From Candidatus Schekmanbacteria bacterium (GTDB lineage: Bacteria > CSSED10-310 > JACPHN01): a stretch of DNA of 29,402 nt. The translations under genes were made by a program, and so were the position numbers. Of the stretch, positions 4,672 to 19,872 are shown one piece after another (positions within the stretch are counted from its first letter, which is position 1; every line of letters begins with the position of its first letter). The stretch spans positions 1 through 29,402 of the forward strand of contig JACPHN010000093.1 in NCBI GenBank assembly GCA_016188575.1. Direction: 5' to 3'. The notes under the pieces are model-generated. The model was not told the origin of the DNA. It worked only from the letters and a program-made list of their open reading frames with translations, and made no database searches.

Positions 4672-5484
4672 ATGTCACAGTTTGTTCCCGTTCGGAATGC
4701 CAGCTCGTTTCGCAAGATGGCCGCGGCGATGTGGCGGCGCCCAAACGACCCCGTGATCTACGGCAGTCTGGACGTGGACGCGAGCGCGGCACTCGCGTTT
4801 CTGGAGCAGGTGCGCGAGAAAACGGGACGGCGCGCAACCCTGACCCACCTTGTCGCCCGCGCCGTCGCCGTGGCGCTGGCGCGCCACTCCGAGCTCAATG
4901 CCAAGGTTCGGTTTTGGGGGCGGCTGGAGCACCGGCGTACGGTTGACCTGTTTCTTCAAGTTTCCACCGACGATGGCCAGGATCTCTCCGGAGCCCGCAT
5001 CGACGCCGCCGACACCAAGTCGCTCGTCGAGATCGCGGACGAAATCGAGCAGAAGGCGAAGACCATTCGCGAGGGCGCCGACGCGACCTATCGCCAGAGT
5101 CGAGACCTGTTTCGACGCATGCCGTGGTGGGCGCTGCGCCCTCTCTTGCGCATCAGCGATTTTCTGGTCAATGAGCTTCATCTCGACCTCGCCAGCCGCG
5201 GCATGCCGCGCGACCCCTTTGGCAGCGCGATGATCACCAGCGTCGGCATGTTCGGCATCGAGACGGGGTTTGCTCCCATGACCCCCGTGGCGCGCTGTAA
5301 CATGATCGTGCTGGTGTCCGCCGTGCGCGAGCGCCCCTGGGTGGTCGACGGACAGCTCGCCGTTCGACCCGTTCTGAGGTTGTGCGCGACGATGGACCAC
5401 CGGGTCATTGACGGCTATCACGCGGGCGTTCTGGCGCGCGAGCTTCGCGGGCTGCTCGAAAACCCGCAAACCCTGGCGGAGTGA
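4672..5484 (+). CDS. Stand-alone 2-oxoacid dehydrogenase E2-type acyltransferase domain
   Basis: 270 residues from ATG 4672, with GGAG (4662-4665) 6 nt upstream. The whole protein corresponds to the catalytic domain of E2 acyltransferases (chloramphenicol acetyltransferase fold). It carries the active-site signature DHRVIDG at residues 242-248, with His243 as general base and Asp247, and an upstream SVGMFGIETG segment that aligns with the NxGMFGxxxF region. The lipoyl and E3-binding domains of true E2 subunits are absent, and no E1 or E3 genes are nearby. It therefore probably transfers an acyl group from CoA in a pathway of its own rather than serving pyruvate dehydrogenase. The substrate cannot be read from the sequence. 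Confidence 0.82.
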   Translation: MSQFVPVRNASSFRKMAAAMWRRPNDPVIYGSLDVDASAALAFLEQVREKTGRRATLTHLVARAVAVALARHSELNAKVRFWGRLEHRRTVDLFLQVSTDDGQDLSGARIDAADTKSLVEIADEIEQKAKTIREGADATYRQSRDLFRRMPWWALRPLLRISDFLVNELHLDLASRGMPRDPFGSAMITSVGMFGIETGFAPMTPVARCNMIVLVSAVRERPWVVDGQLAVRPVLRLCATMDHRVIDGYHAGVLARELRGLLENPQTLAE

Positions 5485-5540
5485 GCGCGCATGCGCGGGC
5501 GTGCTCGGTACCGCGGCGATCAGGAGTGAAGGTGAGAACG

Positions 5541-6818
5541 ATGCGAAAGATGAAGCACCCGTACCTCTGCCGCGCCGTGTGCGGCCTGGCGATGGCGCTC
5601 CTGATGGCGACCTGGGGGTGCGATGACGATCCGGAAAAGGACGAGAACGCGGTCGCGACTCCCTGCACAAATGGTCTTGCCGGAGTATACCCCTGCCGCG
5701 GCGTAGAGCTCCTCGCGCACCTGCCCCTGGAGGCAATCGGCGGCGTCAGCGACGCGATTGCCAACGACGTCTGGGGGTGGACGGACGCGGCTTCGGGGAA
5801 ATCCTTCGCGCTGGTTGGCCTGTCGAACGGCACTGCGTTGGTCGACGTCACCCAGCCAGTGCGCTCGCGTTACGTCGGCCTGCTCCCGACGATGAGTCGG
5901 CTGCGCGGCGGGCGATGCGCGGGGCGCAGCGGCGGCGCCTGCGGTGATTCGACCTGGCGCGGTGTCAAGGCATACGCAGACCACGCCTTCGTGGTGAGCG
6001 AGGAATACGATCACGGCCTGCAGGTGCTCGACCTTCGGCAACTCCTGTCGGTGAGCGGCAAGGCGCAGGTGTTCGCCGAGACAGCGCACTTCGCGGGCTT
6101 CGGATCGGCCCACAACATCGCAGTGAATGAGGAATCGGGCTTCGCCTACGCGGTGGGCAGCGATCGCTGCGCAGGCGGCCTCTTCATGATCGATGTGCGC
6201 GTGCCGGCACAGCCCACCTACGCCGGATGTTATGACGGAGACGGCTACACACACGACGTGCAGTGCGTCATCTATCGGGGGCCGGACGCGCGATACGCCG
6301 GTCGCGAGATTTGCTTCGCGTCCAACGAGGACACGGTGACGATCGTGGACGTAACCGCCAAGGATGCGCCACGCCAGCTCGGTCGCCAAACCTACGAGGG
6401 GGTCGGCTTCGTGCATCAGGGCTGGTTAACGGAAGACCAGCGGTATTTTCTGAGCGACGACGAGCTGGACGAGGTGGACTTCGGGCATCCGACGCGGACC
6501 TACATCTGGGACATGGGAGATCTCGAGCGCCCTGCGATGATCGGCTACTACCAGAGTCAGAGCTCCGCCATCGACCATAACCTGTTCATCCGCGGCAGTC
6601 GCGCCTACGCTGCCAATTACCGGAGCGGGCTACGTGTCTTCGACCTTGCCGGGGTCGCGGCGGCGCGCCTGGAAGAGATCGCCTTCTTCGACATCTATCC
6701 AGCGAGCGATGACGCCGTCTTCAGCGGCGCCTGGAACGTGTACCCCTACTTTCCGGACGGCACGATCGTCGTCAGCGGCATCGAGCAGGGTCTCTTCGTG
6801 CTCGCTCTGGAGCCGTGA
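5541..6818 (+). CDS. Choice-of-anchor B family lipoprotein (LVIVD-type beta-propeller)
   Basis: 425 residues from ATG 5541; an earlier in-frame start at 5481 is rejected because a normal lipoprotein signal begins here and AAGGTG lies 6 nt upstream. The signal peptide ends at a lipobox-like TWGC (Cys27), followed by Asp residues. The body holds repeated short beta units such as TIVDVTAKDAP and the hallmark stretch HDVQCVIYRGP...GREICFASNED of the choice-of-anchor B family. Several conserved Cys probably form disulfides. It is likely an envelope or surface protein. It follows the acyltransferase gene by 56 nt, so it may be in the same transcript. Its ligand is unknown. Confidence 0.87.
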   Translation: MRKMKHPYLCRAVCGLAMALLMATWGCDDDPEKDENAVATPCTNGLAGVYPCRGVELLAHLPLEAIGGVSDAIANDVWGWTDAASGKSFALVGLSNGTALVDVTQPVRSRYVGLLPTMSRLRGGRCAGRSGGACGDSTWRGVKAYADHAFVVSEEYDHGLQVLDLRQLLSVSGKAQVFAETAHFAGFGSAHNIAVNEESGFAYAVGSDRCAGGLFMIDVRVPAQPTYAGCYDGDGYTHDVQCVIYRGPDARYAGREICFASNEDTVTIVDVTAKDAPRQLGRQTYEGVGFVHQGWLTEDQRYFLSDDELDEVDFGHPTRTYIWDMGDLERPAMIGYYQSQSSAIDHNLFIRGSRAYAANYRSGLRVFDLAGVAAARLEEIAFFDIYPASDDAVFSGAWNVYPYFPDGTIVVSGIEQGLFVLALEP

Positions 6819-6835
6819 GGCGCCGCCGTCGCCTC
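6817..6835. terminator. Possible shared hairpin between convergent genes
   Basis: GAGGCG (6817-6822), a 7-nt loop, then CGCCTC (6830-6835), in the 21-nt gap between two convergent genes. The position suits a bidirectional terminator, but there is no T-run on either strand, so this is only a candidate. Confidence 0.3.
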
Positions 6836-6839
6836 CTGC

Positions 6840-7595
6840 TCAGCGCGCCTCGACGACTTTCGAGCCGGCGACGACCGCCTCCGTGCCGTCATCGTCGAAT
6901 CGCACCCAGCACTTGGTTCCGCCATCGTAATCCTCGCCGCGCACAAACAGGGTGGCGGGACGAGCGAAGGCGCGGCAGTGCCCCGGAAGCACGGGATCGC
7001 GACCGCTCCAGGCGCGCGCGAACGCGTTGTGCTCCCACTCCTCGGCAACCGTCGAGGAGCCGGCATGGCCCGGATACACCGCCACGCGCGCCGGCAACGC
7101 GAGCAGCACGTTCACTACGGATTGGCGCAGGTCAGTAACGGTGGTGTGCCCTACCGCCATCGTCCCCCCTACCCCGTGGCGAAAAAGCGTGTCGCCCGTG
7201 AAGACCGCCTCTTCGTCGATCAGGAAGGCGAGCTGACCGGCGGTGTGTCCCGGCACATGCAGGGCGTGGATGGCGAGCTTGCCCGAAGCGAATCGGCTGC
7301 CGTCTGCGAGCGTCTGATCAAGCTGCTCGGGAGCCGGGAAGAACGGGAGCTCGCGCTCGTGGCAGCACACCGATGCCCCAAGGAGATGTCGATAGACTTC
7401 GGCGTGTTGGGAATGGTCCCAGTGATGGTGGGTGAGCAGCACGTGAGTCAAGGAAATCCCGAGTCGCGCGATTTCGTCCAGTATGGGCTCCGGGGGGGCG
7501 CCCGCATCGACGAGAACGCCGTGTCCTCCGGGGCGGTCGCACACCAGGTAGGTGTTCGCCAGCATGGCGTCGAGAGTAAACGTTTTCACAATCAC
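6840..7595 (-). CDS. Metallo-beta-lactamase-fold hydrolase (glyoxalase II-like)
   Basis: 251 residues. GTG at 7595 is chosen over a longer frame because AAGGGAGAG (minus strand, 7609-7601) lies 5 nt upstream and MIVKTFTL is the usual start of the family. Zinc ligands are visible: HHHWDH (residues 56-61), PGHT (His117), TGDT (Asp135) and YPGH (His177). The core resembles hydroxyacylglutathione hydrolase-type thioester hydrolases. A tail of about 50 residues after the last ligand region, with a WVRFDDDG stretch, exceeds the short core. It is monocistronic and divergent from the PLP decarboxylase gene. The real substrate could be glutathione- or CoA-like and is not determined. Confidence 0.88.
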   Translation of the reverse strand: MIVKTFTLDAMLANTYLVCDRPGGHGVLVDAGAPPEPILDEIARLGISLTHVLLTHHHWDHSQHAEVYRHLLGASVCCHERELPFFPAPEQLDQTLADGSRFASGKLAIHALHVPGHTAGQLAFLIDEEAVFTGDTLFRHGVGGTMAVGHTTVTDLRQSVVNVLLALPARVAVYPGHAGSSTVAEEWEHNAFARAWSGRDPVLPGHCRAFARPATLFVRGEDYDGGTKCWVRFDDDGTEAVVAGSKVVEAR

Positions 7596-7770
7596 GCGCG
7601 CTCTCCCTTCTCGCGGCGCAATCCGGCCGGCAATACACGACCGCCCTGAATCCACCCCCCTCCGTCCCTCCTCCCGCCGGCGGGGCTAGGTCAGGTGGGG
7701 CGTCTTCGCAATGCGCATTCCGCGCAGCCTGCAGCCGACCAGGCGGGGGATTCAGGACCGCCGCGACCCA

Positions 7771-7800
7771 TTGATTTATGGGTACCGTTCGCGCTACGTT
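7771..7800 (+). promoter_or_regulatory. Weak candidate promoter of the PLP decarboxylase operon
   Basis: TTGATT (7771-7776) and TACGTT (7795-7800) are 18 nt apart. The predicted start is within about 5 nt of ATG 7812, so the message would be nearly leaderless, which fits the lack of any Shine-Dalgarno. A small dyad (CCCAT/ATGGG, 7767-7782) overlaps the -35. The rest of 7596-7770 shows only a pyrimidine-rich stretch and a palindrome at 7673-7684. Confidence 0.28.
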
Positions 7801-7811
7801 ATGTCGCTATT

Positions 7812-9002
7812 ATGTGGTGGGCGAGAGACGATCTTACATACCATGACGGCGAATTGCACCTCGGCGGTCGCAACCTGAATGCGCTCCTGCATCCAGACGA
7901 CGTTCCGCTGTTCGCCTATCATGCCGGCCGCGTCGCGGACAACCGCAATCGCGTCGTGGCCGCTCTGACCCGTAACGGCGTCCGCCATCGCCTGCTCTAC
8001 GCGCTCAAGGCGAATCGCTTTGTGCCGCTGCTGACGTTCATGAAGCTGCGCGGTCTTTGCGGCATCGACGTGTGCTCTCCCGGAGAGCTGCTCCTCGCGC
8101 TGCAAGTGGGATTCAAAGAAGAGGACATCTCCTGGACGAGCACTTCGCTTGATTCGCGAGATCTCGCATGCCTCGCCGTCCATCCGCGGGTCGCGGTCAA
8201 CTGCGACTCGTTCGACTCCATTCGGCGGCTTGCGGTGGCGTCGCCGAAACGCGCCATCGGCTTGCGCATCAATCCCGACCTTGGCCTCAGCTATCGCAGC
8301 CTCGCCAAGCTTCGCTACTCGGGAAACGCAACCAAGTTCGGTATCTATCAGGATCGCTTCCGTGAGGCGCTGGCGCTTGCCCGCGAGCTCGGGATGACGA
8401 TCGAAGGTCTTCACTTTCACTGCGGGTGCGGATACCTGACACCGCAACTGGAACGATGGCAAGAGATTCTGGAAGCCGCGCAAAGCTTTGTCCGGTCGGC
8501 GGGACCGCTGCGGTACGTCAACGTGGGCGGTGGTCTCGGCGTGCCCATGACTGCTGAGGACGAACCTGTTGATCTGGATCGTTGGGCGGACCTCATTCGG
8601 CGCCATCTCGGAGGTGGAGAAACGGAGGTCTGGGTCGAACCCGGCACGTTTCTCGTCATGGACTCCGGTGTCCTCCTCGTTCGTGTAAGCTCGGTGGAGC
8701 AGCGCTGCGGGACGCGTTTCGCGACCGTCAACGCCGGCTTCAACGTCATGATCGAGCCCGCAATGTATGACATGCCTCCTACCGTCGCCCCGTTGGCTCT
8801 GCCCCGCTCGCACGACCCGTGGGAGCGCGTAACGGTGGCAGGAAACATCAACGAGGCACTTGACGTCTTCGCCGTGGATGTCGAGCTGCCGGCACTCGCT
8901 CCGGGCGATCGCCTCGCCTTGCTCAATGCCGGCGCCTACGCTTCGAGTATGAGCTCCAACCACTGCCTTCGCGGCACTTTTGCAGAGTATTTGATCGCAT
9001 GA
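7812..9002 (+). CDS. Atypical type III PLP-dependent decarboxylase (DAP/ornithine decarboxylase-like)
   Basis: 396 residues from ATG 7812; the 39 in-frame codons upstream look non-coding. The PLP lysine is Lys66 in YALKAN. Also visible are SPGEL (89-93), TKFG (174-177), HFHCGCG (201-207), the phosphate-binding GGGLG (239-243) and a C-terminal GAYASSMSSN, all in LysA order. Key substrate positions differ. The EPGR arginine is Thr (EPGT, 276-279), the RPALY arginine is Glu (EPAMY), and the CESxD cysteine is replaced in GNINEALD (344-351). It is therefore probably not a diaminopimelate decarboxylase but a related enzyme with another substrate, or a decarboxylase with altered chemistry. The ATGA overlap couples it to the methyltransferase. 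Confidence 0.85.
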   Translation: MWWARDDLTYHDGELHLGGRNLNALLHPDDVPLFAYHAGRVADNRNRVVAALTRNGVRHRLLYALKANRFVPLLTFMKLRGLCGIDVCSPGELLLALQVGFKEEDISWTSTSLDSRDLACLAVHPRVAVNCDSFDSIRRLAVASPKRAIGLRINPDLGLSYRSLAKLRYSGNATKFGIYQDRFREALALARELGMTIEGLHFHCGCGYLTPQLERWQEILEAAQSFVRSAGPLRYVNVGGGLGVPMTAEDEPVDLDRWADLIRRHLGGGETEVWVEPGTFLVMDSGVLLVRVSSVEQRCGTRFATVNAGFNVMIEPAMYDMPPTVAPLALPRSHDPWERVTVAGNINEALDVFAVDVELPALAPGDRLALLNAGAYASSMSSNHCLRGTFAEYLIA

Positions 9003-9688
9003 GACCTTTTCACGATGGGACACAGGGTAAACAGGCGAGCTGGTCGTCCTGGGATGATCTTTACCGGGAGCATGGCGGCGCCGTGTGGGGTTACGACGCG
9101 CTCCCTTTTGTCGTTGACTTCGCTGAGCTGATTCGCTCACAGCTTCCCACCAACGCGCGCCTGCTGGATGCGGCCGCGGGTACGGGGAGAAATCTTTCGG
9201 CCCTGCTCTCCTTGCCAGCCGAGCTCGTCGCGAGTGACGGCTCTTCTCATGCGCTGCGGGCTATTCCCGCGGAATCGCTGGCGAGAATCCGCCGGGTTCA
9301 GGCGGACATGACCGAGCTTCCCTTCGACGATGAATCGTTTTCCGCCATCATCGCAACGGACGTGATCGAGACGATCGAGCAGCCGCTCAACGTGCTGCGC
9401 GAGTTGCGACGCGTGCTACGCAAAGATGGTCTGTTGCTGTGCAACGTTCCCGGCGCCGACGATGGGGTCGCCGGCCACGACATGACGCCGCTTGCGGACG
9501 GCGGCTTTGTCTATAGTGATCGCTTCTATTACCACTTCCATTCGCCGGAGGAGGCGTCGATCCTGCTTTCCGAGGCCGGTCTGCGCGTGCTCGAGGCGCG
9601 CCGACGCGTATGGATGGAGGAGGCCCACATGGGGTTTCGTGACTTTCGGCACGAGCATGTGAGCCACGTGTTTCTCGCCGGGCGCTGA
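8999..9688 (+). CDS. Class I SAM-dependent methyltransferase
   Basis: 229 residues; ATG 8999 overlaps the TGA of the decarboxylase gene. The SAM-binding motif I is LLDAAAGTGRN (residues 55-65), followed by an acidic motif II (LVASDGS), the post-II stretch ELPFDDESF and motif VLRKDGLLLCNVPG. This is the Methyltransf_11-type arrangement of small-molecule methyltransferases. Coupling to the decarboxylase suggests both act in one small pathway, for example methylating the amine or amino acid product; that is inference. The acceptor cannot be told from the sequence. Confidence 0.87.
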   Translation: MRPFHDGTQGKQASWSSWDDLYREHGGAVWGYDALPFVVDFAELIRSQLPTNARLLDAAAGTGRNLSALLSLPAELVASDGSSHALRAIPAESLARIRRVQADMTELPFDDESFSAIIATDVIETIEQPLNVLRELRRVLRKDGLLLCNVPGADDGVAGHDMTPLADGGFVYSDRFYYHFHSPEEASILLSEAGLRVLEARRRVWMEEAHMGFRDFRHEHVSHVFLAGR

Positions 9689-9710
9689 GCCGCCCCGGCG
9701 CGCTGTAGCA

Positions 9711-12700
9711 ATGCGGCAGGCTCTCCGACGATTCTTCAAGCTGCACGCCGGAGAGCTTGCCAAAGTCGTCGAGTTCGGATTGCTCGGCGCGTTTCTCCAG
9801 GCGGGCATCGCCGTGGGAATCGCCACGGCCGATGCCCTTTTTTTGACGAATTTGGGCGCCGCTCGCCTGCCCCTCGTCTACTTGCTCCTGGCGCTCGTCA
9901 TGGTCGCGGTCACCCCGTTCCTGTCGCACCTGACCGCGCGGCTCGGCATTGCCCGCGCCATGAGCTTCGCCATCGTCACTTTGGCGCTTGGCGACCTCAT
10001 CGTGCACGCCCTGCTTGTGAGCTTCCCCGCCCCCTGGGTCTTTTTCGCCGCCAAGCTTTTCGCCCTCGGCAGCTACCTATCCGTCTACGCGCTCTACTGG
10101 AACTTCCTCGACGCCTTCTTCTCGATTCTCGACGGCAAGCGACTTTTCGCGTTCTTCAGCGGGGGCTTGGCGTTTGGCGCGATCGCGGGCGGCAGCCTCG
10201 TCAGCGTGCTGGCGCCGCACCTCGCGGTCGCTCAGCTTTTCGTCCTCTCCGCCATCCTCGCCCTGGGTGCCTACCCCGTCTTCATGCGCATCAACAGGCG
10301 CTGGCCGGTTGCTTCCGCTGCCGAGCAGGACGAGGATGTCGGGCTCTTTCAGCAAATGAGCCATGTCTTGTCGAGCCTGCGCCGCTCGCGATACGCTCTT
10401 CTACTAGCAACCTCCTTTGCCCTGCTTGTCGTCGTCTTGACTATGTCAGAATTCCAGTATCTGAACATATTGTCCAAGTCAAGAACAGAAGAGCAAATGG
10501 CGACGCTTTTCGGTAAACTATTTGTATTTGTAAATGCCTTCAATTTCATCGTAAACTTCCTCATATTCAATCGCATCATCCTTTATTTCGGCGTCAGAAA
10601 TGCTGTCCTCATTCAACCTGTCGCCATGATCGCAGTATTCTCTGCTCTCGTCGTCGATGGTGGAGAAGCTGTCGCTATCGCCGGATTTTTTGCGTATCAC
10701 GGACTGCAGATTTCTGTTGACTACAATACGTGGAATTTCCTGGTCAACGCCCTGCCCGCACACGGGCGGCGCGACCTCAGGACCATCATCGAGGCCCTGG
10801 AGGAGCCGCTTGGCATCGCGGCGACCGGGGCATTCCTCCTCTATGCAGCGCCGAAACTCTCTCCGCAGCAGCTCTCGAGCCTCGGCTTGCTGATCGCCCT
10901 GCTGTATCTTCTCGTGTCTTTCTTCGTGCGGCACGACTACGCGTCCTCGCTCATCGGGAACCTGCGGCGGGGATGGCTGGACTTGTCCGCATCCGAAGGC
11001 AGCATCGCTGGCAGCATGGGGCCGGAGACGCTGGTATCGCTGGGAGCGGAGATGCGGCGAGCACCGCCGGCCGAGGCGGCCGCGCTGGGGCGATATCTGC
11101 TCGCGGCGGGTTCCGAACGCGCGCACCAGTGCATCTTGGAGGCGATTTTTCAGCGCCCGCCGAGTGAACGGGAGGCGTTCGCCGCGGTGTTTGGGGAGAT
11201 CGTCGCCGCGGCAAGACCCGAGACCGCCGCGGAGTTGTGGGGCTGGATCGGTCGAGAGCTTGACGCGATCGGCCCGGAATTGCTCGAAGAGCTATGCGCG
11301 CGAAATCTCGTCGCGCGTGACCGCCTCCTGGCGCTGGCACAAGCCGCGGACCCGCGCCTGCGCGCGGCAGCAGCCGTGGCTCTGTGGCGCAGTTGGTGTC
11401 CGGACGATGCACTGGTCGGGGTCCGCGCCCTGCGGGGGCTGCTGCAGGGGGAAGGAGACGAGCTCGTGGCCGGCATTCGCGCGGTGGGTCGGCTCGGCGA
11501 CCCGCGGTATGCACATGCCCTGGTGCCGTTCCTGCAGGCGCCCGGCGAGCAAGTGCGCGCCGCGGCCGTGGAGGCCGCGAGTCGGCTGGTGACGAGTCAG
11601 TCGAGTCGGCTCGTGGGCCCCCTGTTGTCGGCGCTGGAGAATGGGTCCGGAGAAATGCGGCAGGCCAGCATCACGGCACTCGGGGCGATCGGGGATTCCG
11701 CCAGTGTGGTGCCGCTGCTGCACACCAGCGCGGTGCTCAACCCTCGCGAGCGACGGCTGGTGGAAAAGACCATCGACAGCGTCGGGTTGCGCGCAATCCC
11801 TGGCCTCGTATCCGTGCTCCGCGATCTCCGAAACGATTACGAGGCGCGCTCCCTTGCCGCGCGTTCGCTGGGCCGTCTGGCGTTCGGTCAGTTGGATGGC
11901 ATGCTGCCGGGTCTGCTCCGCCCGGAGATCAGGCGGGCGTTCCGCTATCTCAGTCAGGGCGAGACGCTGCGCGAAGCCGCCGGGGCATCCGTAGGGCGGC
12001 GCGTCCTGGCCGCGCACTTTCATAGTGTACACCGCCGTTCGGTCATCTTCGTGCTGGAGCTGCTCGCGCTCGGCGGACGCCTTGGCGACTTCGATCTCGT
12101 CGTCACCTCGCTCCGCAGCGACAATGAGAAAGTGCGGGGCGACGCGCTGGAGACGCTTGAGCAGTTTTGCCCGCGGGCCATTTTTCGGCTTCTTCTGCCT
12201 CTGGTCGACACCCGTCCAGTCGCCGAGAAACTGCTCTCCTACCGGCGGACGTTCGCGCCGCCACCGCGCAGCGCCGCGCAAATCGTCGAGGAATCGCTGC
12301 ACGCGACGCAGTCCCTGGAAGCCGCGGCCGCATGCTTTGCCACCTGGGAGGCGCATCCGGAGGAAGCCCGGGAGCGCCTGGCGGAGCGGCTTCTGGGTGA
12401 GCGCGGCGCGGAGCTCCGGATCGCGCTTTCCGAGCTTCTCGGTGAGAGCGGGGACCGGCCGCTGAACCTGGTCGAGAAGGTCGATCACCTGCTCGGCACG
12501 GAATTTTTCTCGCGCGTCGGCACCTTTGGCCTGGCACGGATCGCCGCCGCGGCAGTCGAGCGGCACGTGGCCTCCGGTGATCTCATTCACGGACGCGGAA
12601 ACGATGCACTCGCCGCCTCGCTGATCCTCGAGGGATCTGCACACGTCGTGGGTCCGGCTGGCGAAAGCGTCGCTGCGCCCGGGACGATCGTCGGCAAGGT

Positions 12701-12878
12701 CGCGCTCCTCGGTCCCGACACGCGCCATGGAGATACCGTCACGTCGCGTGGCGCGCGCATTCTCGCGCTGCAACGCGAAAAGGTCTTCGCGGCCGCCGAG
12801 GTGTCCCCGGAAATCGGCATCGAGCTGCTAAGAAACGCCACGTTGGCCGTGCCGGCGCCGCTCCCCGAGGTGGCGTGA
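9711..12878 (+). CDS. NTT-like nucleotide transporter fused to HEAT repeats and a cyclic-nucleotide-binding-like domain
   Basis: 1055 residues in three parts. Residues 1-410 hold about ten to twelve hydrophobic segments; stretches such as DALFLTNLGAARLP and GKRLFAFFSGGLAFG resemble the ATP/ADP (Npt/TLC) and MFS transporter group. Residues about 545-720 are HEAT-type helical repeats (RAAAVEAASRL, RQASITALGAIGD). Residues about 925-1050 resemble a cNMP-binding CAP_ED beta roll (ASLILEGSAHVVGPAGE, GTIVGKVALL) without a clear phosphate-binding Arg motif. It starts 22 nt after the methyltransferase and its stop overlaps the next start, so it belongs to the same operon. Codons at about 242-336 are unusually AT-rich. 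It may move or sense nucleotides at the membrane; transport is not proven. Confidence 0.8.
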   Translation: MRQALRRFFKLHAGELAKVVEFGLLGAFLQAGIAVGIATADALFLTNLGAARLPLVYLLLALVMVAVTPFLSHLTARLGIARAMSFAIVTLALGDLIVHALLVSFPAPWVFFAAKLFALGSYLSVYALYWNFLDAFFSILDGKRLFAFFSGGLAFGAIAGGSLVSVLAPHLAVAQLFVLSAILALGAYPVFMRINRRWPVASAAEQDEDVGLFQQMSHVLSSLRRSRYALLLATSFALLVVVLTMSEFQYLNILSKSRTEEQMATLFGKLFVFVNAFNFIVNFLIFNRIILYFGVRNAVLIQPVAMIAVFSALVVDGGEAVAIAGFFAYHGLQISVDYNTWNFLVNALPAHGRRDLRTIIEALEEPLGIAATGAFLLYAAPKLSPQQLSSLGLLIALLYLLVSFFVRHDYASSLIGNLRRGWLDLSASEGSIAGSMGPETLVSLGAEMRRAPPAEAAALGRYLLAAGSERAHQCILEAIFQRPPSEREAFAAVFGEIVAAARPETAAELWGWIGRELDAIGPELLEELCARNLVARDRLLALAQAADPRLRAAAAVALWRSWCPDDALVGVRALRGLLQGEGDELVAGIRAVGRLGDPRYAHALVPFLQAPGEQVRAAAVEAASRLVTSQSSRLVGPLLSALENGSGEMRQASITALGAIGDSASVVPLLHTSAVLNPRERRLVEKTIDSVGLRAIPGLVSVLRDLRNDYEARSLAARSLGRLAFGQLDGMLPGLLRPEIRRAFRYLSQGETLREAAGASVGRRVLAAHFHSVHRRSVIFVLELLALGGRLGDFDLVVTSLRSDNEKVRGDALETLEQFCPRAIFRLLLPLVDTRPVAEKLLSYRRTFAPPPRSAAQIVEESLHATQSLEAAAACFATWEAHPEEARERLAERLLGERGAELRIALSELLGESGDRPLNLVEKVDHLLGTEFFSRVGTFGLARIAAAAVERHVASGDLIHGRGNDALAASLILEGSAHVVGPAGESVAAPGTIVGKVALLGPDTRHGDTVTSRGARILALQREKVFAAAEVSPEIGIELLRNATLAVPAPLPEVA

Positions 12879-14440
12879 TGCGCGTGCAGACTCTTATCCT
12901 GGCCATGCTCCTGCCCGTTCTCGGAGTGGGCACGATCGTGGCCGCCTGGGCGAGCTATGGGGCGCTCTACGACGAAATCCTGCACGGCTTCGATCGCAAA
13001 CTATTCGCCATGGCAACCGTGACCGCCGCGTTTGTCGATTCCGGCGAGCATCGCCAGATCATGACGATGCGCGATGAGTCGCATCCGCTCTACAGAAAAT
13101 ACGCGGCACCGATGACGCGGCTCATGGAGCTCAACCAGCTCGCCTACCTGTATACGTTCGTCATGCGAGACAACGGCCGCCTGATCATTTACGTGATCGA
13201 CGGGACCGTCGGCGACGAACATTCGGCAATCGGCGATCAGGATGCTCCTCCGAGCGAGGAGGAAGGCTTGCGGGACGTCTGGTTCCGCGGCGTGACCCAC
13301 CTGACTGGCATCAAGGAGTGGGAGCAGTGGGGACTGCTCAAGTCGGGCTTCGCACCAATTCGCGAGCGCGGCGGCAAGGTCGAGGCCATTGCCGGCGCGG
13401 ATGTGGACGTCACGAGAATCTTGCATCGGTCCCGCGTTGCGCTGCTGCGCGTCGGTCTCATTGGCGCCATCGCCATGGTCTCGGCGAGCTTCTTTGCGTT
13501 TCTTTTGGCCCGCAGACTGGCCAGGCCGATTGCCGCGATGAAGGATGCGGCCCTGCGCGTCGCTGCTGGAGAGTATGGTCACGGGATCGAGATTTCCTCA
13601 CCGCTGGAGCTGCGCCAGCTCGCGCAGACTTTTTCGGCGATGAGCACCACCCTGGCGCGGCACGTTGCCGCGCAAGCGAGCAATCTGACAACGGTTCGTG
13701 TCGCCAGCCGCGCTCAGGATCTCGACCGCCGGCTCGATGTGCCCCTACCCGCGGTGCTCGCGACGCGGGGCGTCGTGGCGGTGTCGGTCACCGGGGCCGG
13801 CACGACCGGAGCCACGCCGGTGTCCGGCTGGCTGTGCGATGACACCGCGATCGTAGCCTGGGCTGGCGACGGCGGCAGCGGCGACGACGACCGGCTCTCC
13901 AGCTTGCTGCGAAGGGACGCCATCGCCCGAGCGGTCGCGGCGATCCTGGACCGACGCAAGCACGCTGGGAGCGCACTTGGCTCGGTCACGAGGAGCTTCC
14001 CGCTTGCTGGAGCTCGCGGCTATGTTGTCATCGACCTTCTGACCGGGCTCGTCTCGCGCTTTGGACCGACGCCGCCGAGCGGTTTTTGGGTCCCCTTGCG
14101 CGCCGGGGCCGCGGGCGAGCCTGTAGAAGTCGGCGCCGCCGAGGCTGCCGACATTGGCAGCGGTTGCTGGGTGTTTGGAGTGGGTGGGGTAACGCCGGAG
14201 CTGCGCACCCTGCTGCTGGAGCCGGCGAACGCGACCTGGCGAAAGAGCGCCCTCAGCGGCCTGGCGCAAGCAGCCCACCTGGCCTCTTCTGACCTCGACC
14301 CTGGACTCGGCAGCCCGTTTCGGCGAGCTGTCGAGCACTTTGCCGGCGGCCTCGCCCGAGCGCTCCCTTACCGGCACTCGCGACCAAGCCCCGAGGCTCC
14401 TCACCTGTTCCCGCAGATGTTCGTCGTGGTGCGTCCATGA
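12878..14440 (+). CDS. HAMP-domain membrane sensor with degenerate SpoIIE-like C-terminus (copy 1)
   Basis: 520 residues from ATG 12878, one base overlapping the previous stop; GTG 12875 is an alternative. TM1 is at about residues 5-26, a periplasmic sensor at 27-187, TM2 at 188-211, HAMP at 208-262 (RPIAAMKDAALRVAAGEYG). The remaining 255 residues are laid out like a SpoIIE/PP2C phosphatase (a YVVIDLLTG strand, a glycine-rich turn, an SFPLAG strand), but the metal-binding Asp-Gly and Asp-hydrophobic-Ser-Gly motifs are not recognisable. It probably receives an external signal and passes it through HAMP to a non-catalytic or divergent output. ATGA overlap with the next gene. Confidence 0.72.
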   Translation: MRVQTLILAMLLPVLGVGTIVAAWASYGALYDEILHGFDRKLFAMATVTAAFVDSGEHRQIMTMRDESHPLYRKYAAPMTRLMELNQLAYLYTFVMRDNGRLIIYVIDGTVGDEHSAIGDQDAPPSEEEGLRDVWFRGVTHLTGIKEWEQWGLLKSGFAPIRERGGKVEAIAGADVDVTRILHRSRVALLRVGLIGAIAMVSASFFAFLLARRLARPIAAMKDAALRVAAGEYGHGIEISSPLELRQLAQTFSAMSTTLARHVAAQASNLTTVRVASRAQDLDRRLDVPLPAVLATRGVVAVSVTGAGTTGATPVSGWLCDDTAIVAWAGDGGSGDDDRLSSLLRRDAIARAVAAILDRRKHAGSALGSVTRSFPLAGARGYVVIDLLTGLVSRFGPTPPSGFWVPLRAGAAGEPVEVGAAEAADIGSGCWVFGVGGVTPELRTLLLEPANATWRKSALSGLAQAAHLASSDLDPGLGSPFRRAVEHFAGGLARALPYRHSRPSPEAPHLFPQMFVVVRP

Positions 14441-14820
14441 ACTTCGCCGAAAAATTGCTGGCGCTCAGCCGCGCAGCGCCGTTTGCTTGCCTCTCCCTGA
14501 GCGAGCTCGCGCCTGTTGCCGAAGTATCGAGACTCGCAGTTTTTCGCCCGGGAGAACCGATAGGCGACGGGACTCGTCCGCTGGGGCGGCTGCTCGTCGT
14601 CGTGGCGGGGGCTGCCGTTGACGCCGAAGATCAACCGTTGCCCCGAGTTCTGGGGGCCTCCTCGGTGCTCTTCGAGCAACCGCTGCCGTGCGCTGTGTTC
14701 GCGTCGCGAAGCGCCGGGGTGAGCTGCCTCGCCTTCAAGAAAGCCCACGTGCTCACCATCCTCAACGAGTGTCCCGGCTTCTCGACGGGGCTGCTGTCCG
14801 TGGTCAGAGGTGGGTGGTAG
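14437..14820 (+). CDS. Small cyclic-nucleotide-binding-like protein
   Basis: 127 residues; ATG 14437 overlaps the previous TGA. The pattern PFACLSLSELAPVAEVSRLAVF, shortened here to its PFACLS-SELAP-FRPGE elements, fits the beginning of a CAP_ED (cNMP-binding) domain. It is followed by LLVVVAGAAVDAED, GASSVLFEQPLPCAVFA and a closing helix. The phosphate-binding cassette (G-E-x-A-L with R) is not clear, so it may be a degenerate or divergent nucleotide sensor. It has no DNA-binding domain. Its position between two HAMP sensors and downstream of a transporter with a similar terminal domain suggests a soluble adaptor for that complex. This is inference. Confidence 0.62.
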   Translation: MNFAEKLLALSRAAPFACLSLSELAPVAEVSRLAVFRPGEPIGDGTRPLGRLLVVVAGAAVDAEDQPLPRVLGASSVLFEQPLPCAVFASRSAGVSCLAFKKAHVLTILNECPGFSTGLLSVVRGGW

Positions 14821-14822
14821 CG

Positions 14823-16226
14823 ATGAGGATTACCACTCACATCCTTATGGGAATCGTGCCCCTGTGCGTCGCGATTGCACTGGTGCTCGGGTACACGAGC
14901 CTTGCCGGGCAGCACCGACAGGTCGAGGAGGACCTGCACGACGAGGCATTCGCACTTGCCTCATCGATTGCGCAATTTCTGTCGCTTCAGGATTTCCAGG
15001 AGCTCGCGAGCAAAGGTGAACGCGCGGAGGCGTACGGTGCGATCCGGACGATCTTGCTCCACGGGCAAGTGAGCTGCGTGATTGGTCTGGCGTCCGACGG
15101 CCGACCCGAGCTGTTTCGCTTCTGTGTCGACGAAGACCAGAGAGCGTTCTTCAAGGTGAAAACTCCGCCGGATCTGCGGGATCGACTCGTCGCCGGCAGT
15201 GGCAACGTGCATGTCGGAGACAGCCAGGCGCATGGAGAGGTCGGCGCGACGATGTGCGCCTTTGGCGGTATCCGTGCGGCCGACGGCGTGCTGGCCGGAA
15301 TTGTCGCTATTGCCGTTCTGACCCGCGACGACGACCTGAGCCACGCCCGGGCCTTTCGCAACAAGCTCGTGTTCCTCGTCGCCTGGGCGATCCTGAGCAG
15401 CCTGATCGTGGGGACGTATCTGGCGCGGGTGCTTCGCCGCCCCATCCGCGCCATGATTGCATCGGCGGCGCGCGTCGCGGATGGTGACTACGAGCAGCAT
15501 GAATCTGGAGGCCGCATTCGCGAGCTCGATGACCTGGCGAGCACCTTCAATACCATGACCAGCCTTCTCGGCGACCTGATCGAAAAGTCCCGGCGCACGC
15601 TGGCAGAAGAGGAGCAGTTCCGCTCCGCCCGCGATGCTGCGCTCCTGCTTCGCGAGATGCGATGGTCTCCGCGCGCGACGGCGATACACGGGATCGAGGT
15701 GATCACCTGCTGCGGCTCGTCGTCCGGAAGCGGCGACCTGGTCTTTGCCGCCGACCTCGGGTCGCTCGGAGTTGCGCTGCTGGCGAGAGTCCGCAAGGGC
15801 GCCGGCGACAACGAGCTGCAAGCCGACCTGCGCGCCGCCGCCGCGCAGGACTGGCTGTTGGAGATGGCGGCGCGGCAGACGGCGGGGCTCGCGGAGGTCG
15901 TCGAGGAGGCAGCGGACCTTTTCGACTTGGAGCTCGCGGAGCTCGCTACCTGGGACGCGAGCGATCGGCCAGTGCGAAGAGTGTCCTGGCAGAGTGGGGC
16001 GCGCGCTGAGGAGCGACCTGATCTACTGGAGGAAAACGCGCTGGTGATCGCTGCCGCGCCCGCTCCGGTGGCCGCTCGAGTCCACGTGCTCGTGCAGGTT
16101 TTCGCTGCGAAATCGGCGCCGGAGCTGCTCGCAGAGATCGAGGGCGAGGTCCGGGAGGTGGCGGCGGCGAGCTTCCTGGTGCTGCGCCGGCAGGCCTCCG
16201 AGCCGGTCTCCGCGGCGGGGCCGTGA
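14823..16226 (+). CDS. HAMP-domain membrane sensor with degenerate SpoIIE-like C-terminus (copy 2)
   Basis: 467 residues from ATG 14823, two bases after the previous stop; an upstream in-frame extension to 14688 overlaps the preceding gene and is discarded. TM1 is at about residues 5-27, a periplasmic region at 28-180, TM2 at 181-202, HAMP at 200-255 (RPIRAMIASAARVADGDYE). After a short helical linker the last 200 residues look like a worn SpoIIE/PP2C domain: GSGDLVFAADLGSLGVALLA sits where a DxxGxG metal motif would be. The architecture parallels copy 1, but the two periplasmic parts differ, so they may sense different signals. Last gene of the block; a candidate terminator overlaps its end. 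Confidence 0.72.
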   Translation: MRITTHILMGIVPLCVAIALVLGYTSLAGQHRQVEEDLHDEAFALASSIAQFLSLQDFQELASKGERAEAYGAIRTILLHGQVSCVIGLASDGRPELFRFCVDEDQRAFFKVKTPPDLRDRLVAGSGNVHVGDSQAHGEVGATMCAFGGIRAADGVLAGIVAIAVLTRDDDLSHARAFRNKLVFLVAWAILSSLIVGTYLARVLRRPIRAMIASAARVADGDYEQHESGGRIRELDDLASTFNTMTSLLGDLIEKSRRTLAEEEQFRSARDAALLLREMRWSPRATAIHGIEVITCCGSSSGSGDLVFAADLGSLGVALLARVRKGAGDNELQADLRAAAAQDWLLEMAARQTAGLAEVVEEAADLFDLELAELATWDASDRPVRRVSWQSGARAEERPDLLEENALVIAAAPAPVAARVHVLVQVFAAKSAPELLAEIEGEVREVAAASFLVLRRQASEPVSAAGP

Positions 16227-16234: not shown

Positions 16235-16926
16235 GCGTGCTGGGAAGGCGAACCTGCGAGCACTACCGTACTTGTACACCGCCTCCTCCCGCAAATAGGA
16301 AACTCGAATTGCGAGGTCGTCCGTTTCATCCGACGCGGGTCGGCGGTGCCGGTGTGGAACTGATGAGGAGCCGCCCGGCGCCCATAGCACTAACACCCTC
16401 GGAGGCGCCGGAGGATCGCCCCCTGGCTTCAAAGGCAGACCCAGGCCTGCACACCGATACCTGTCGCGACGACTTCCGACCAAGGCTAGTTCTGATCCGA
16501 AAAAGCTTGACTCGCGCTGCGAACCGCGCTACGAACAGCGCAGAAAGCGAGTTGGGATTCGCGACATCTGTAACCGATTCCGGTCTGGAATACCGGGCTT
16601 GGCCGAGATCGCCCGTGCCTTCGGAAAAGGCATTCGCAATGCGGCCCATGGAGCGATGCCATGATGCCCGAATCGAGCGCGAGTAGATAGCCGTACCTTG
16701 CGGCTGGGGCCACTCGGCGTCTGTTGACCACGCGACACCGAAGCAGGGACATCCGCCAAAGGACGATCCCGGCTTGGACCCTCTCGACCACCGAAAGGCA
16801 AGGCGGATGATGCCACTACCAGGCTGCATTGGGCGAATGCACCGTCGATCGCGCCTCGTCCGGCATTCTGGGCCGACTCCGCCCATTACTATGAGGCGAG
16901 GTGCCGGCGGCACCGCTCGGGGGTGC
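16235..16926. other. Gene-free stretch with possible structured RNA
   Basis: About 690 bases without a convincing gene. Open frames at 16237-16686 (plus) and 16486-16791 or 16326-17042 (minus) have no signal, domain or codon pattern worth calling. Two folds are visible. At 16511-16551 CTCGC-GCTG pairs with CAGC and GCGAG around an internal bulge. At 16581-16597 CCGGT pairs with ACCGG, with ATTCC/GGAAT as an alternative pairing. A weak promoter-like pair TTGACT/TACGAA with 17 nt spacing lies at 16507-16535. It may hold a long leader of the downstream surface-protein gene or a small RNA. Confidence 0.35.
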
Positions 16927-19872
16927 ATGTCCCTGCGCGATACAGATTCAGCCCATCTGGCTTCCGGCGTTACCGGAATCGCGGTCGTGTTCATCGCCCT
17001 CCTGCTGGGGGCGAGCACCCGCTCGACCGCTGCTCCAGTCACTCTGGACAGCTTTTCGACCGCTCAATCGTCACTGAGCCTCGTGTTCCCGCCGGCCGGC
17101 ACATCCACTTCCTCGTCGGTTTCCGGGTCCGGGATCCTGGGCGGCGAGCGGGACCTCCTCTTGAACCTGACCGCTGGCATCATCGCCGGAAACGAGTGCA
17201 GCATGGCGGTCAGCTCGGGGTTCCTGAGCTACAGCCAGGACGCCACGATCGCGGCGCAGGGCACGATTAGCTGGGATGGTCTCGACGGTTCTTCGGTGCT
17301 CGACCCGAGCGGGCTCGGTGGCCTGGACGTCACGGACGGCGGGAAGCTCGACGCTCTGGAGATGGGGGTCATTTTCGACGACCTCCCGGTCAACGTGACT
17401 GTGGAGATCTTCACAGACGCGGGGAACGCGTCGCAGATGACACTCACGCTGCCCGGCCTCATCTTCACCGCGACGAGCTTCATCCTCCCCTTCTCGTCGT
17501 TCACGACGAGCCTTGGCGCCGGGGCGGACTTCACAAGCGTCGGTGCGGTCGTGCTTACGGTCGGCTCTGCCGTGACAGCGCCGGACGTGGTCATCGACTC
17601 CCTCTCGTTCGCGTCGATGCTCGGCGCGACGATGACGGCCTCGCTCCAAGTCGACGTGAATGGAAATACCCAGGCTGATCCCGGTGACACGCTGCGCTAC
17701 GAAGTCGCCATCAGCAACGCCGACGACGACAATGACGGGGCGGCGACGGGTGTGGCGTTCGCCGTCACGCCCGGGGCAAACACCAGCCTGTCGGTCGGGT
17801 CGGTGACGACCACTCAGGGATCGGTGACGGCCGGAAATTCCGGCGGCGACACCACTGTCGCAGTGAACGCCGGCATGATCTCCGACGGCGGATTGGTGAC
17901 GATCACCTTCGACGTCGTAATCGCCGACCCGCTGCCGCTTGGGGTGAGCTCGGTCAGTGCCCAGGGAACGATCACGAGCGATACTCTGACCGGCGGTATT
18001 CCGACCGACGATACCGCGGCGGGAGGCACGGAAGACGCGACCGTGACGTCGGTGAACCCGTCCGACTATGACTTCGGCGACGCTCCGGATCCGACCTACC
18101 CGACCCAGGTGGCGAGCGGCGGCCCCTACCACGCGCTGGGGAGCGGCGTCTTTCTCGGCGCGGCGGTCGATGGCGAGGGAGATGGCCAACCCGACGCGAT
18201 GGCCACGGGCGACGACACGACCGATACGGACGACGAGGACGGCGTGACCTTCGTGGATTCGCTCGTCCCCGGTGAAACGGCAGGCGTGACCGTAATCGCG
18301 AGCAGCGCTTGTACCCTCAGCGGCTGGGTCGACTTCAACGGCGACGGCGACTGGAGCGAAGTGGATGAAGACGCCTTCCCTGGCGGCCTTGCTCTGTCCA
18401 CGGGCAGCAACGACGCGACGATCAGCGTTCCCGCCACTGCGCAGGTGGGGGCCACCTTCGCTCGCTTCCGCTGCACGACGGACGGCGCTGTCAGTTTCAC
18501 CGGCTCGGCGTCGGACGGCGAAGTGGAGGACTACGGTATCGACATCCTGGCGCCCACCCCCACCCCCACCCCCACGCCCACTACCACGCCCATCGCTACG
18601 GCCACGGCGACCGCGACCGCCAGTGCGACTCCGACGGCTACAGCCACCGCGACCGCCAGTGCGACTCCGACGGCTACGACCACCTCGACCGGGACCGCCA
18701 GTGCGACTCCGACGGCTACGGCCACCTCGACCGGGACGGCGACCTCGACCGGGACGGCGACCGCGACCGGGACGGCGACCTCGACCGGGACGGCGACCGC
18801 GACCGGGACGGCGACCGCGACCGGGACGGCGACCTCCAGTGCGACGGCCACGGCCACCGCGACCGGGACCGCGACCGCCAGTGCGACTCCCACGGCTACG
18901 GCCACCTCAACCGGGACCGCGACCGCCAGTGCGACCCCCACGGCTACGGCCACCTCAAGCGGGACGGCGACCGCCAGAGCGACTCCCACGGCTACGGCCA
19001 CCTCACGGGGGACGGCGAGTGCGACTTCGACAGCCACTGCCACCGCGACCGGGACCGCGACCGCCAGTGCGACTCCGACGGCTACGACCACCTCGACCGG
19101 GACCGCGACTGCCAGCGCGACTCCTACGGCGACGGCCGCTTCGACCGGGACCGCGACCGAGACGGCCATCGCCACCGCTACGGCCACGGCCACTGCGACG
19201 GCCACCTCTACCGAGACGGCCACCGGCACGGCCACCCCGATTGCGACAGCCACCGCTTCGGCTACCCCGACCGCGACTCCGACGCCCTCGCCGATCCAGA
19301 TTACCTGGCGCCGGTCCCCGCCATGGACAGGCGACTTCGCAGGGGCTCAGGATGACGCCGGGTTTTTCTTCCACGAACCGAATTTTGACGACAGCTCTTG
19401 GTGGCCGGTGACCCTGCCAGACTATAGCGAGGAACGCCTTGCGGATGTCTTCTACCGCGGCTGGTTCGAGTGGGACGGCAGCTCCGAGGTGTGGCTCGAG
19501 TTCCAGTCGGACGACAGCCTCGATGTCTATAGCAACGGCGATTACCTGGGCGGTTGGGGTTTCGGCTGGCGCTCGTCCGGCTGTGTCAACATCGATGACT
19601 GCGAGCCCAACGTGGTCGTGCCGCCGCAACAGGTTCAGGCTGACCGACTGGTTCGCGGGCGGAATTTGATCGCCTTACGGCTCTCCAACGCCCGGGGCTC
19701 GAGCCACGTCAATCTCACGGCGCTACCGCAACCTCGCGTGCCGGGATCCAGCCGGATCGGCCTGATCTTCCTCAGCCTGGTCATCTCCTGGATGCTGTCT
19801 GTCACCGCTCGGCGTGGCCTCGTCGGTCGTCGGGTCATACCAAGGGCGACGGCAACGCGGACATCGATCTAG
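16927..19872 (+). CDS. Large GEVED-domain surface protein with Thr/Ala repeat linker
   Basis: 981 residues from ATG 16927, chosen because a signal peptide (hydrophobic core at about 14-30, ending STAA) follows at once; starts at 16807 or 16891 are possible. After a beta-rich region there is a DUF11-like repeat (VDVNGNTQADPGDTLRY), then a GEVED domain at about 379-541 (YDFGDAPDPTYPT, WVDFNGDGDW, DGEVEDYG). A low-complexity Thr/Ala/Ser/Gly/Pro linker spans about 543-788. The last part (about 790-940) resembles a PA14 or galactose-binding jelly roll (FDDSSWWPVTLPD, SDDSLDVYSNGDYL). It ends in a transmembrane segment (about 943-965) and an Arg-rich tail, like a sorting or anchor signal. Probably a cell-surface adhesin-like protein. 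Confidence 0.82.
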   Translation: MSLRDTDSAHLASGVTGIAVVFIALLLGASTRSTAAPVTLDSFSTAQSSLSLVFPPAGTSTSSSVSGSGILGGERDLLLNLTAGIIAGNECSMAVSSGFLSYSQDATIAAQGTISWDGLDGSSVLDPSGLGGLDVTDGGKLDALEMGVIFDDLPVNVTVEIFTDAGNASQMTLTLPGLIFTATSFILPFSSFTTSLGAGADFTSVGAVVLTVGSAVTAPDVVIDSLSFASMLGATMTASLQVDVNGNTQADPGDTLRYEVAISNADDDNDGAATGVAFAVTPGANTSLSVGSVTTTQGSVTAGNSGGDTTVAVNAGMISDGGLVTITFDVVIADPLPLGVSSVSAQGTITSDTLTGGIPTDDTAAGGTEDATVTSVNPSDYDFGDAPDPTYPTQVASGGPYHALGSGVFLGAAVDGEGDGQPDAMATGDDTTDTDDEDGVTFVDSLVPGETAGVTVIASSACTLSGWVDFNGDGDWSEVDEDAFPGGLALSTGSNDATISVPATAQVGATFARFRCTTDGAVSFTGSASDGEVEDYGIDILAPTPTPTPTPTTTPIATATATATASATPTATATATASATPTATTTSTGTASATPTATATSTGTATSTGTATATGTATSTGTATATGTATATGTATSSATATATATGTATASATPTATATSTGTATASATPTATATSSGTATARATPTATATSRGTASATSTATATATGTATASATPTATTTSTGTATASATPTATAASTGTATETAIATATATATATATSTETATGTATPIATATASATPTATPTPSPIQITWRRSPPWTGDFAGAQDDAGFFFHEPNFDDSSWWPVTLPDYSEERLADVFYRGWFEWDGSSEVWLEFQSDDSLDVYSNGDYLGGWGFGWRSSGCVNIDDCEPNVVVPPQQVQADRLVRGRNLIALRLSNARGSSHVNLTALPQPRVPGSSRIGLIFLSLVISWMLSVTARRGLVGRRVIPRATATRTSI
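18554..19289 (+). repeat. Intragenic minisatellite encoding a Thr/Ala-rich linker
   Basis: About 735 bp of imperfect repeats inside the GEVED protein gene. It opens with CCCACC units (Pro-Thr) and continues with mixtures of GCGACC, GGGACG, TCGACC and GCCAGTGCGACTCC units, often in periods of 12 to 30 bp. The near-absence of stop codons leaves long open frames in a second plus frame (Arg/Pro-rich) and on the minus strand (Val/Ala-rich); these are artefacts of the repeat. Length variation by slippage or recombination is expected. Confidence 0.9.

Follow-up and report, generated by a model that had tools for sequence, protein, structure and literature searches.

What is made by four genes that follow one another almost without a gap, and that encode a carrier-like protein (P1), two membrane sensors (P2 and P4) and a very small protein (P3)? 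This question is raised by a locus in contig JACPHN010000093.1 of Candidatus Schekmanbacteria bacterium (assembly GCA_016188575.1; 9.2 Mb, 275 contigs), the 29,402 nucleotides of which (66% GC) were analysed in full and are termed the window. The original prediction, made from the sequence of the window alone, described four tightly packed genes, and this packing is confirmed: the gaps between P1, P2, P3 and P4 are −4 (−1 from the P2 ATG), −4 and +2 bases. The reading preferred here, with an estimated probability of roughly 0.5, is that the products of the four genes form a single membrane module around an NTT-derived carrier, on which the two sensors and P3 dock and which they either gate or report. 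The operon has the appearance of a membrane machine for signalling or uptake that has not been described.

Conservation of the four-gene order

In a survey of 386 genomes, an NTT-HEAT profile matches in 75, at a threshold that also admits plain NTT, HEAT and cyclic nucleotide-binding domain (cNBD) proteins. In many of the surveyed loci, a separate cNBD gene is located just downstream of the NTT-HEAT gene. Because a scan of the collection with the P1 alignment detects two loci only, whole-genome profile searches were then used. The four-gene order of the window is found in the metagenome-assembled genome (MAG) Candidatus Cloacimonetes 4572_55 (L119, identical with L144; genome G247) and in genome G150 (L121). 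The window proteins have one-to-one matches in L119 and L121 at 2e-184 and 3e-157 for P1, 2e-57 and 3e-33 for P2, 2e-18 and 2e-11 for P3, and 2e-23 and 6e-8 for P4, respectively. A subfamily profile adds an Opitutaceae MAG (L145), G390 (L155) and five further genomes of the phylum of the Opitutaceae MAG, in which 6 of 387 genomes have a subfamily locus. All four genes are present, one-to-one and in this order, in each of the ten subfamily loci (the window and nine others, from Verrucomicrobiota, Candidatus Cloacimonetes 4572_55 and another small phylum), and the operon is carried by at least four distant bacterial groups. The original prediction had proposed to check whether the homologues are neighbours in other genomes, and they are. 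Overlaps of 4 bp occur at 17 of the 30 gene junctions. The recurrence of order and tight spacing in ten loci, despite identities of only 14-35% between the window P2 to P4 and their orthologues, indicates more than chance.

When 49 NTT-HEAT proteins are placed in a tree by a quick method, the ten subfamily P1s cluster together on a long branch (SH-aLRT 100), to the exclusion of the other 39; long branches are present elsewhere in this tree as well. Relatives of P2 and P4 are not detected at 1e-4 in 43 other NTT-HEAT loci, and P3 gives a single weak match outside the subfamily loci, in L127. A HAMP profile detects only four HAMP proteins in the 43 loci, one of which (L138) is near and co-directional and adjoins a homocitrate-synthase-like gene. 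The four-gene order is real and specific to one NTT-HEAT clade. The invariant order, the frequent overlaps and the absence of P2 and P4 relatives from other NTT-HEAT loci favour the interpretation that the four genes encode one module.

Carrier core, P3 and the question of nucleotide sensing

When the window proteins are searched singly against Pfam and NCBIfam, no PP2C, NTT or P3 family is detected, so that orthologue profiles and structure models are needed. P1 alone gives a HEAT_2 match (5.7e-12), a cNMP_binding match below the Pfam cut-off (1.4e-4) and about ten hydrophobic segments; it stays below the Pfam TLC threshold, which its L119 orthologue barely passes (21.4 bits vs 21). A profile built from 16 NTT cores, of which subfamily P1s supply ten, matches the ADP,ATP carrier 9j3n at 2.6e-21 (residues 18-495) and the chloroplastic carrier 9j3j at 3.2e-19. 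The P1 core is assigned by these profile matches to the NTT (TLC ADP/ATP carrier) family, and NTT core, HEAT repeats and cNBD are present in one chain. The transporter-like core with HEAT repeats and a CAP_ED-like end, as originally described, is thus borne out. The core had been left unnamed, but its architecture, NTT-HEAT(-cNBD), is already known (PMC5381601). NTT-HEAT fusions followed by a separate or fused cNBD occur in many bacteria (Major, Embley and Williams 2017, PMC5381601); bacteria widely encode NTT-HEAT-cNBD proteins, and such proteins are also present in cyanobacteria, Chlamydia (NTT-HEAT) and oomycetes, with a function known for none in that survey (PMC5381601). The P1 clade resembles these proteins in domain order and in the small separate cNBD gene nearby, but differs from them in having both a fused and a separate cNBD, in its two Cache-HAMP-pseudo-PP2C sensors and in the loss of the ADP-binding lysine.

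Transport by plant NTT1 depends on K155, E245, E385 and K527 (PMC4256464). ADP is no longer bound by this protein once K155 is mutated, and mutation of K527 abolishes or reduces the binding of ATP, the K527R variant binding it only above 1 mM (PMC3306366). In the alignment, all ten P1s have Ala, Ser, Thr or Val at the K155 position, and four of the six other NTT or NTT-HEAT cores that were compared have Arg there. The E245 position is mixed (D/S/N/E/T), Glu is kept at the E385 position in all ten, and the K527 position holds Arg without exception (window R357). The residue set required for ATP/ADP exchange is therefore not retained in full, and the substrate of P1, as judged from these residues, is probably other than ATP or ADP. 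NTT membership, together with loss of K155, retention of E385 and the Arg at K527 in every P1, is one reason why a module built on an NTT-derived carrier is preferred.

P3 of the window gives no match to Pfam, and its L119 orthologue gives a weak cNMP match (9.5e-4). In contrast to the single protein, a profile of the ten P3 orthologues matches cGMP-dependent kinases (2e-19 for the whole chain, 2e-6 for the best single domain) and many other cNBDs, in agreement with the original description of a tiny CAP_ED-like protein. The Glu and Arg of the phosphate-binding cassette are not conserved in the ten-row P3 alignment and are absent from window P3; an ECP motif is kept instead. P3 is thus, on the basis of this profile, a degenerate cNBD fold. 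The cassette Glu is also retained in only five of the ten P1 cNBDs and is replaced by Lys in the window.

These results bear on the proposal of Major et al. for NTT-HEAT-cNBD proteins, by which P1 would be a cAMP- or cGMP-tuned ATP/ADP carrier, here with two extra sensors. The NTT match and the presence of cNBDs in both P1 and P3 accord with this proposal, which is already in print (PMC5381601). It is nevertheless improbable for this clade, because the lysine without which plant NTT1 binds no ADP is replaced in every P1, and the phosphate-binding Glu is lost in half of the P1 cNBDs, including that of the window, and in the P3s. Sensing of a nucleotide, which the original prediction had included, is poorly supported in this clade because K155 and the phosphate-binding residues of P3 are lost; in the window the P1 cNBD has lost its Glu as well. 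The composition and neighbourhood given in that prediction stand.

In locus L157 the P3 orthologue (12167-13069) has an additional GAF domain at its N-terminus (7.7e-18), which suggests that an extra signal may enter through P3 in this locus.

Membrane sensors P2 and P4

Both P2 and P4 have two transmembrane (TM) helices, an extracytoplasmic Cache/PAS domain and a HAMP domain (Pfam, 2e-10 for P2 and 1.9e-9 for P4); HAMP is detected in all ten P2 orthologues. The model of P4 has a mean predicted local distance difference test score (pLDDT) of 76, and its C-terminus has a PP2C fold. This part matches RssB (3f79; Z 14.7, root-mean-square deviation (rmsd) 3.9, 184 residues aligned), the RsbU domain (3ke6; Z 14.5, rmsd 3.1, 175 aligned) and RsbX (3w40; Z 14.3, rmsd 2.9, 166 aligned), three matches that are tied, and SiaA-PP2C at Z 13.2. 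The extracytoplasmic part resembles the sensor domains of CitA and KinD (Z about 10). The P4 C-termini give only a weak match to SpoIIE by hhalign (29% probability, E 6e-4), by which the PP2C motif positions were guided. At these positions, the second catalytic Asp (GDVSGHG) is replaced by Arg in six of the ten proteins (Arg322 in the window) and by Thr, Phe, Glu or Gln in the rest, and the first metal-binding Asp (GGDxxD) is kept in three and replaced by Glu in two. The C-terminus of P4 is thus, according to the model, a PP2C fold with its catalytic motifs lost.

The model of P2 has a well-predicted Cache/PAS domain like those of DctB, CitA and DcuS (Z about 14). Its C-terminus, of low pLDDT, aligns with SpoIIE/RsbU PP2C domains at Z 10.6-11.2 (SpoIIE 5ucg: Z 11.2, rmsd 4.0, 183 aligned), and hhalign gives no match between the P2 C-termini and SpoIIE. 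This poorly predicted region is probably an inactive PP2C domain like that of P4. Of the two sensors that were originally proposed to end in pseudo-phosphatases, P4 therefore does so, and P2 probably does. Many P2 orthologues have a propeller-like insert (DUF6923/DUF4394 matches) or extra Cache domains, which are absent from window P2.

HAMP-SpoIIE proteins with intact-looking catalytic motifs (SpoIIE 2e-43 to 1.4e-53) adjoin the clusters in L158, L159 and L160 (Table 1). P4, and probably also P2, shares the PP2C fold and the TM-sensor-TM-HAMP-PP2C layout with phosphatases of this type, such as SiaA of Pseudomonas and the RsbU/SpoIIE proteins. The two sensors differ from these phosphatases in the loss of the catalytic Asp motifs, probable for P2, and in that they are paired and linked to a transporter. 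The loss of the P4 motifs, in contrast to the intact HAMP-SpoIIE proteins, argues for non-catalytic sensor ends. These ends may alternatively be partner-switching decoys, which would sequester a partner and thereby modulate the active HAMP-SpoIIE phosphatase. The similar membrane sensor-HAMP layout of the adjoining phosphatase accords with such a role, which is nonetheless rather improbable, because this phosphatase is present at only three of the ten loci, its neighbours include no identified gene for a STAS or anti-sigma protein, and P1 and P3 are left unexplained. For a docking module, RssB is a precedent: its PP2C-type domain serves as an adaptor and needs no phosphatase activity (PMC5468089), and the position of this protein among the best structural matches of P4 favours the module. 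P2 and P4 would resemble RssB in using the fold for protein binding instead of catalysis. They are membrane receptors, however, and RssB, which hands sigma-S over to ClpXP, is a soluble response regulator.

In L157, an extracellular solute-binding protein (14501-15868; SBP_bac_8 1e-10) overlaps the end of P4 and may hint at a ligand.

Upstream enzymes, proposed mechanism and surroundings

Two genes for a decarboxylase and a methyltransferase, which overlap by 4 bp, end 22 bp before P1. Both probably belong to the same transcript as the four genes, which would extend the operon to 7695-16226; the originally proposed extent, 9711-16226, is right for P1 to P4 and misses these two. The decarboxylase shares with LysA the fold of a fold III pyridoxal phosphate (PLP) decarboxylase (PDB 2p3e, 3.6e-59), but it scores 229.1 bits against the lysA model TIGR01048, under the cut-off of 297.9. 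The catalytic Cys of CESGD, which the ordinary copies of LysA type that G150 and G745 possess retain, is replaced by Asn, and the SNYNxR region is SNHCxR. One may reasonably guess that the product is related to amines or polyamines.

The decarboxylase adjoins the four genes in five of the ten loci, its orthologues in L119, L145, L156 and L158 being 46-48% identical to that of the window. The methyltransferase also adjoins them in five, with orthologues in L145, L156, L157 and L158 that are 36-45% identical. In L158 the two are naturally fused (5014-7005). A PrmC-like methyltransferase is present in four loci of the phylum of the Opitutaceae MAG, and L119 has an NNMT/PNMT/TEMT-type methyltransferase (2.6e-46) before the cluster and an ABC exporter after it. 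The adjacency of both enzymes and their fusion support a module whose substrate is connected with them. They are also consistent with simple co-transcription, in which decarboxylase and methyltransferase would make an amine for P1 to move, with the sensors acting on other targets. Adjacency across phyla at 36-48% identity, the methyltransferase and exporter of L119 and the solute-binding protein of L157 all point in this direction. However, the four genes persist in four of the ten genomes that have no operon-type decarboxylase, which indicates that the core has its own logic, and the loci have no recurrent output gene in common. Co-transcription without a single complex is therefore unlikely.

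For the preferred module, we infer a physical complex with ligands, a substrate, a direction of transport and an output, which would work as follows. The Cache/PAS domains of P2 and P4 would read small extracytoplasmic ligands, and the HAMP relays would reposition the catalytically dead PP2C domains, which would act as binding modules, as in RssB, instead of as enzymes. These ends and the cNBD-derived adaptor P3 would attach to the tail of P1 formed by HEAT repeats and cNBD, and would thereby either gate transport or report on the state of P1. In the branch with the decarboxylase and the methyltransferase, the substrate may be the decarboxylated, perhaps methylated, amine made by those enzymes. 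The core could also be the receptor or channel that the original prediction suggested.

Several points weigh against this reading. Contact among the four proteins is deduced from gene order only, transport activity of P1 is putative, and the PP2C part of P2 has a pLDDT of 36-69. G150, G390, G713 and G745 lack the operon-type decarboxylase and retain only a match at the level of ordinary LysA, and in G761 this decarboxylase is unlinked; an amine made by it therefore cannot be the substrate everywhere.

In a bolder form of this reading, the complex would represent a membrane signalling assembly of a novel class, in which nearly all domains are disabled enzymes or ligand-binding domains: an NTT-derived receptor or non-nucleotide carrier, a pair of receptors with pseudophosphatase ends and a cNBD adaptor that binds no ligand. 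This form is tentative and somewhat doubtful. In transporter-coupled sensors, such as DctA with DcuS and UhpC with UhpB, a carrier or carrier-like protein serves a membrane receptor, and the sensors are histidine kinases. The sensor domain of P2 resembles those of DcuS, CitA and DctB. To our knowledge, no such system has HEAT/cNBD tails or pseudophosphatases. A limited literature search detects no description of the four-gene set and no named system of this composition, as the original prediction had supposed. The NTT-HEAT-cNBD part has been known since 2017, its partnership with two pseudophosphatase sensors appears to be undescribed, and the machine as a whole has a fair chance of being new. 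If the module exists, it represents a receptor design in which sensing is coupled to a carrier through pseudophosphatase domains instead of kinases. This clade supplies NTT-HEAT-cNBD proteins with fixed receptor-type partners and shows which residues are dispensable, so that four defined genes now make it possible to test whether such a protein is a transporter, a transceptor or a receptor.

Table 1. Coordinates of the operon genes, the terminator-like element and the HAMP-SpoIIE genes beside related clusters (window positions unless a locus is given)
Feature	Position	Strand	Length	Description
Decarboxylase	7695..9002	+		LysA-like PLP decarboxylase, Orn_Arg_deC_N 1.1e-29; probably first gene of the operon
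Methyltransferase	8999..9688	+		class I methyltransferase, Methyltransf_11 9.4e-18
P1	9711..12878	+	1055 aa	NTT core, HEAT repeats, degenerate cNMP-binding domain
P2	12875..14440	+	521 aa (520 aa from ATG 12878)	TM-Cache/PAS-TM-HAMP-probable pseudo-PP2C
P3	14437..14820	+	127 aa	small degenerate cNMP-binding-domain protein
P4	14823..16226	+	467 aa, ATG start	TM-Cache/PAS-TM-HAMP-pseudo-PP2C
Terminator-like hairpin, then T run	16204..16223	+		end of P4; pattern match only
HAMP-SpoIIE neighbours	L158:13281-14912, L159:14838-16496, L160:4020-5681			

A longer P4 open reading frame (ORF) from GTG 14688 is rejected, because it overlaps P3 and is not supported by the P4 orthologues. A sigma-70-like site is not detected in a promoter scan of the region, and terminator-like patterns number 13, against 7.4 expected. 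Upstream of the operon are a choice-of-anchor B family protein (5481-6818; TIGR04312, 9.5e-137) and an ORF on the minus strand (6840-7655). Homologous (2e-77), exported-looking, beta-strand-rich proteins without a Pfam family are encoded just upstream of P1 in L121 (10277-11107) and L155 (12722-13558), two loci of the same phylum. A protein near the cluster in L119 (12384-13166) looks similar to these exported-type proteins, with a relatedness that is not demonstrable. Downstream, 547 bp past P4, a GEVED-domain protein begins (16774-19872), which continues into a long Thr/Ala-rich repeat (TATATGTATASATPT-like). A Ser/Thr protein kinase is encoded at 21241-22530, and similar kinases adjoin NTT-HEAT genes in L112, L114, L066 and L116.

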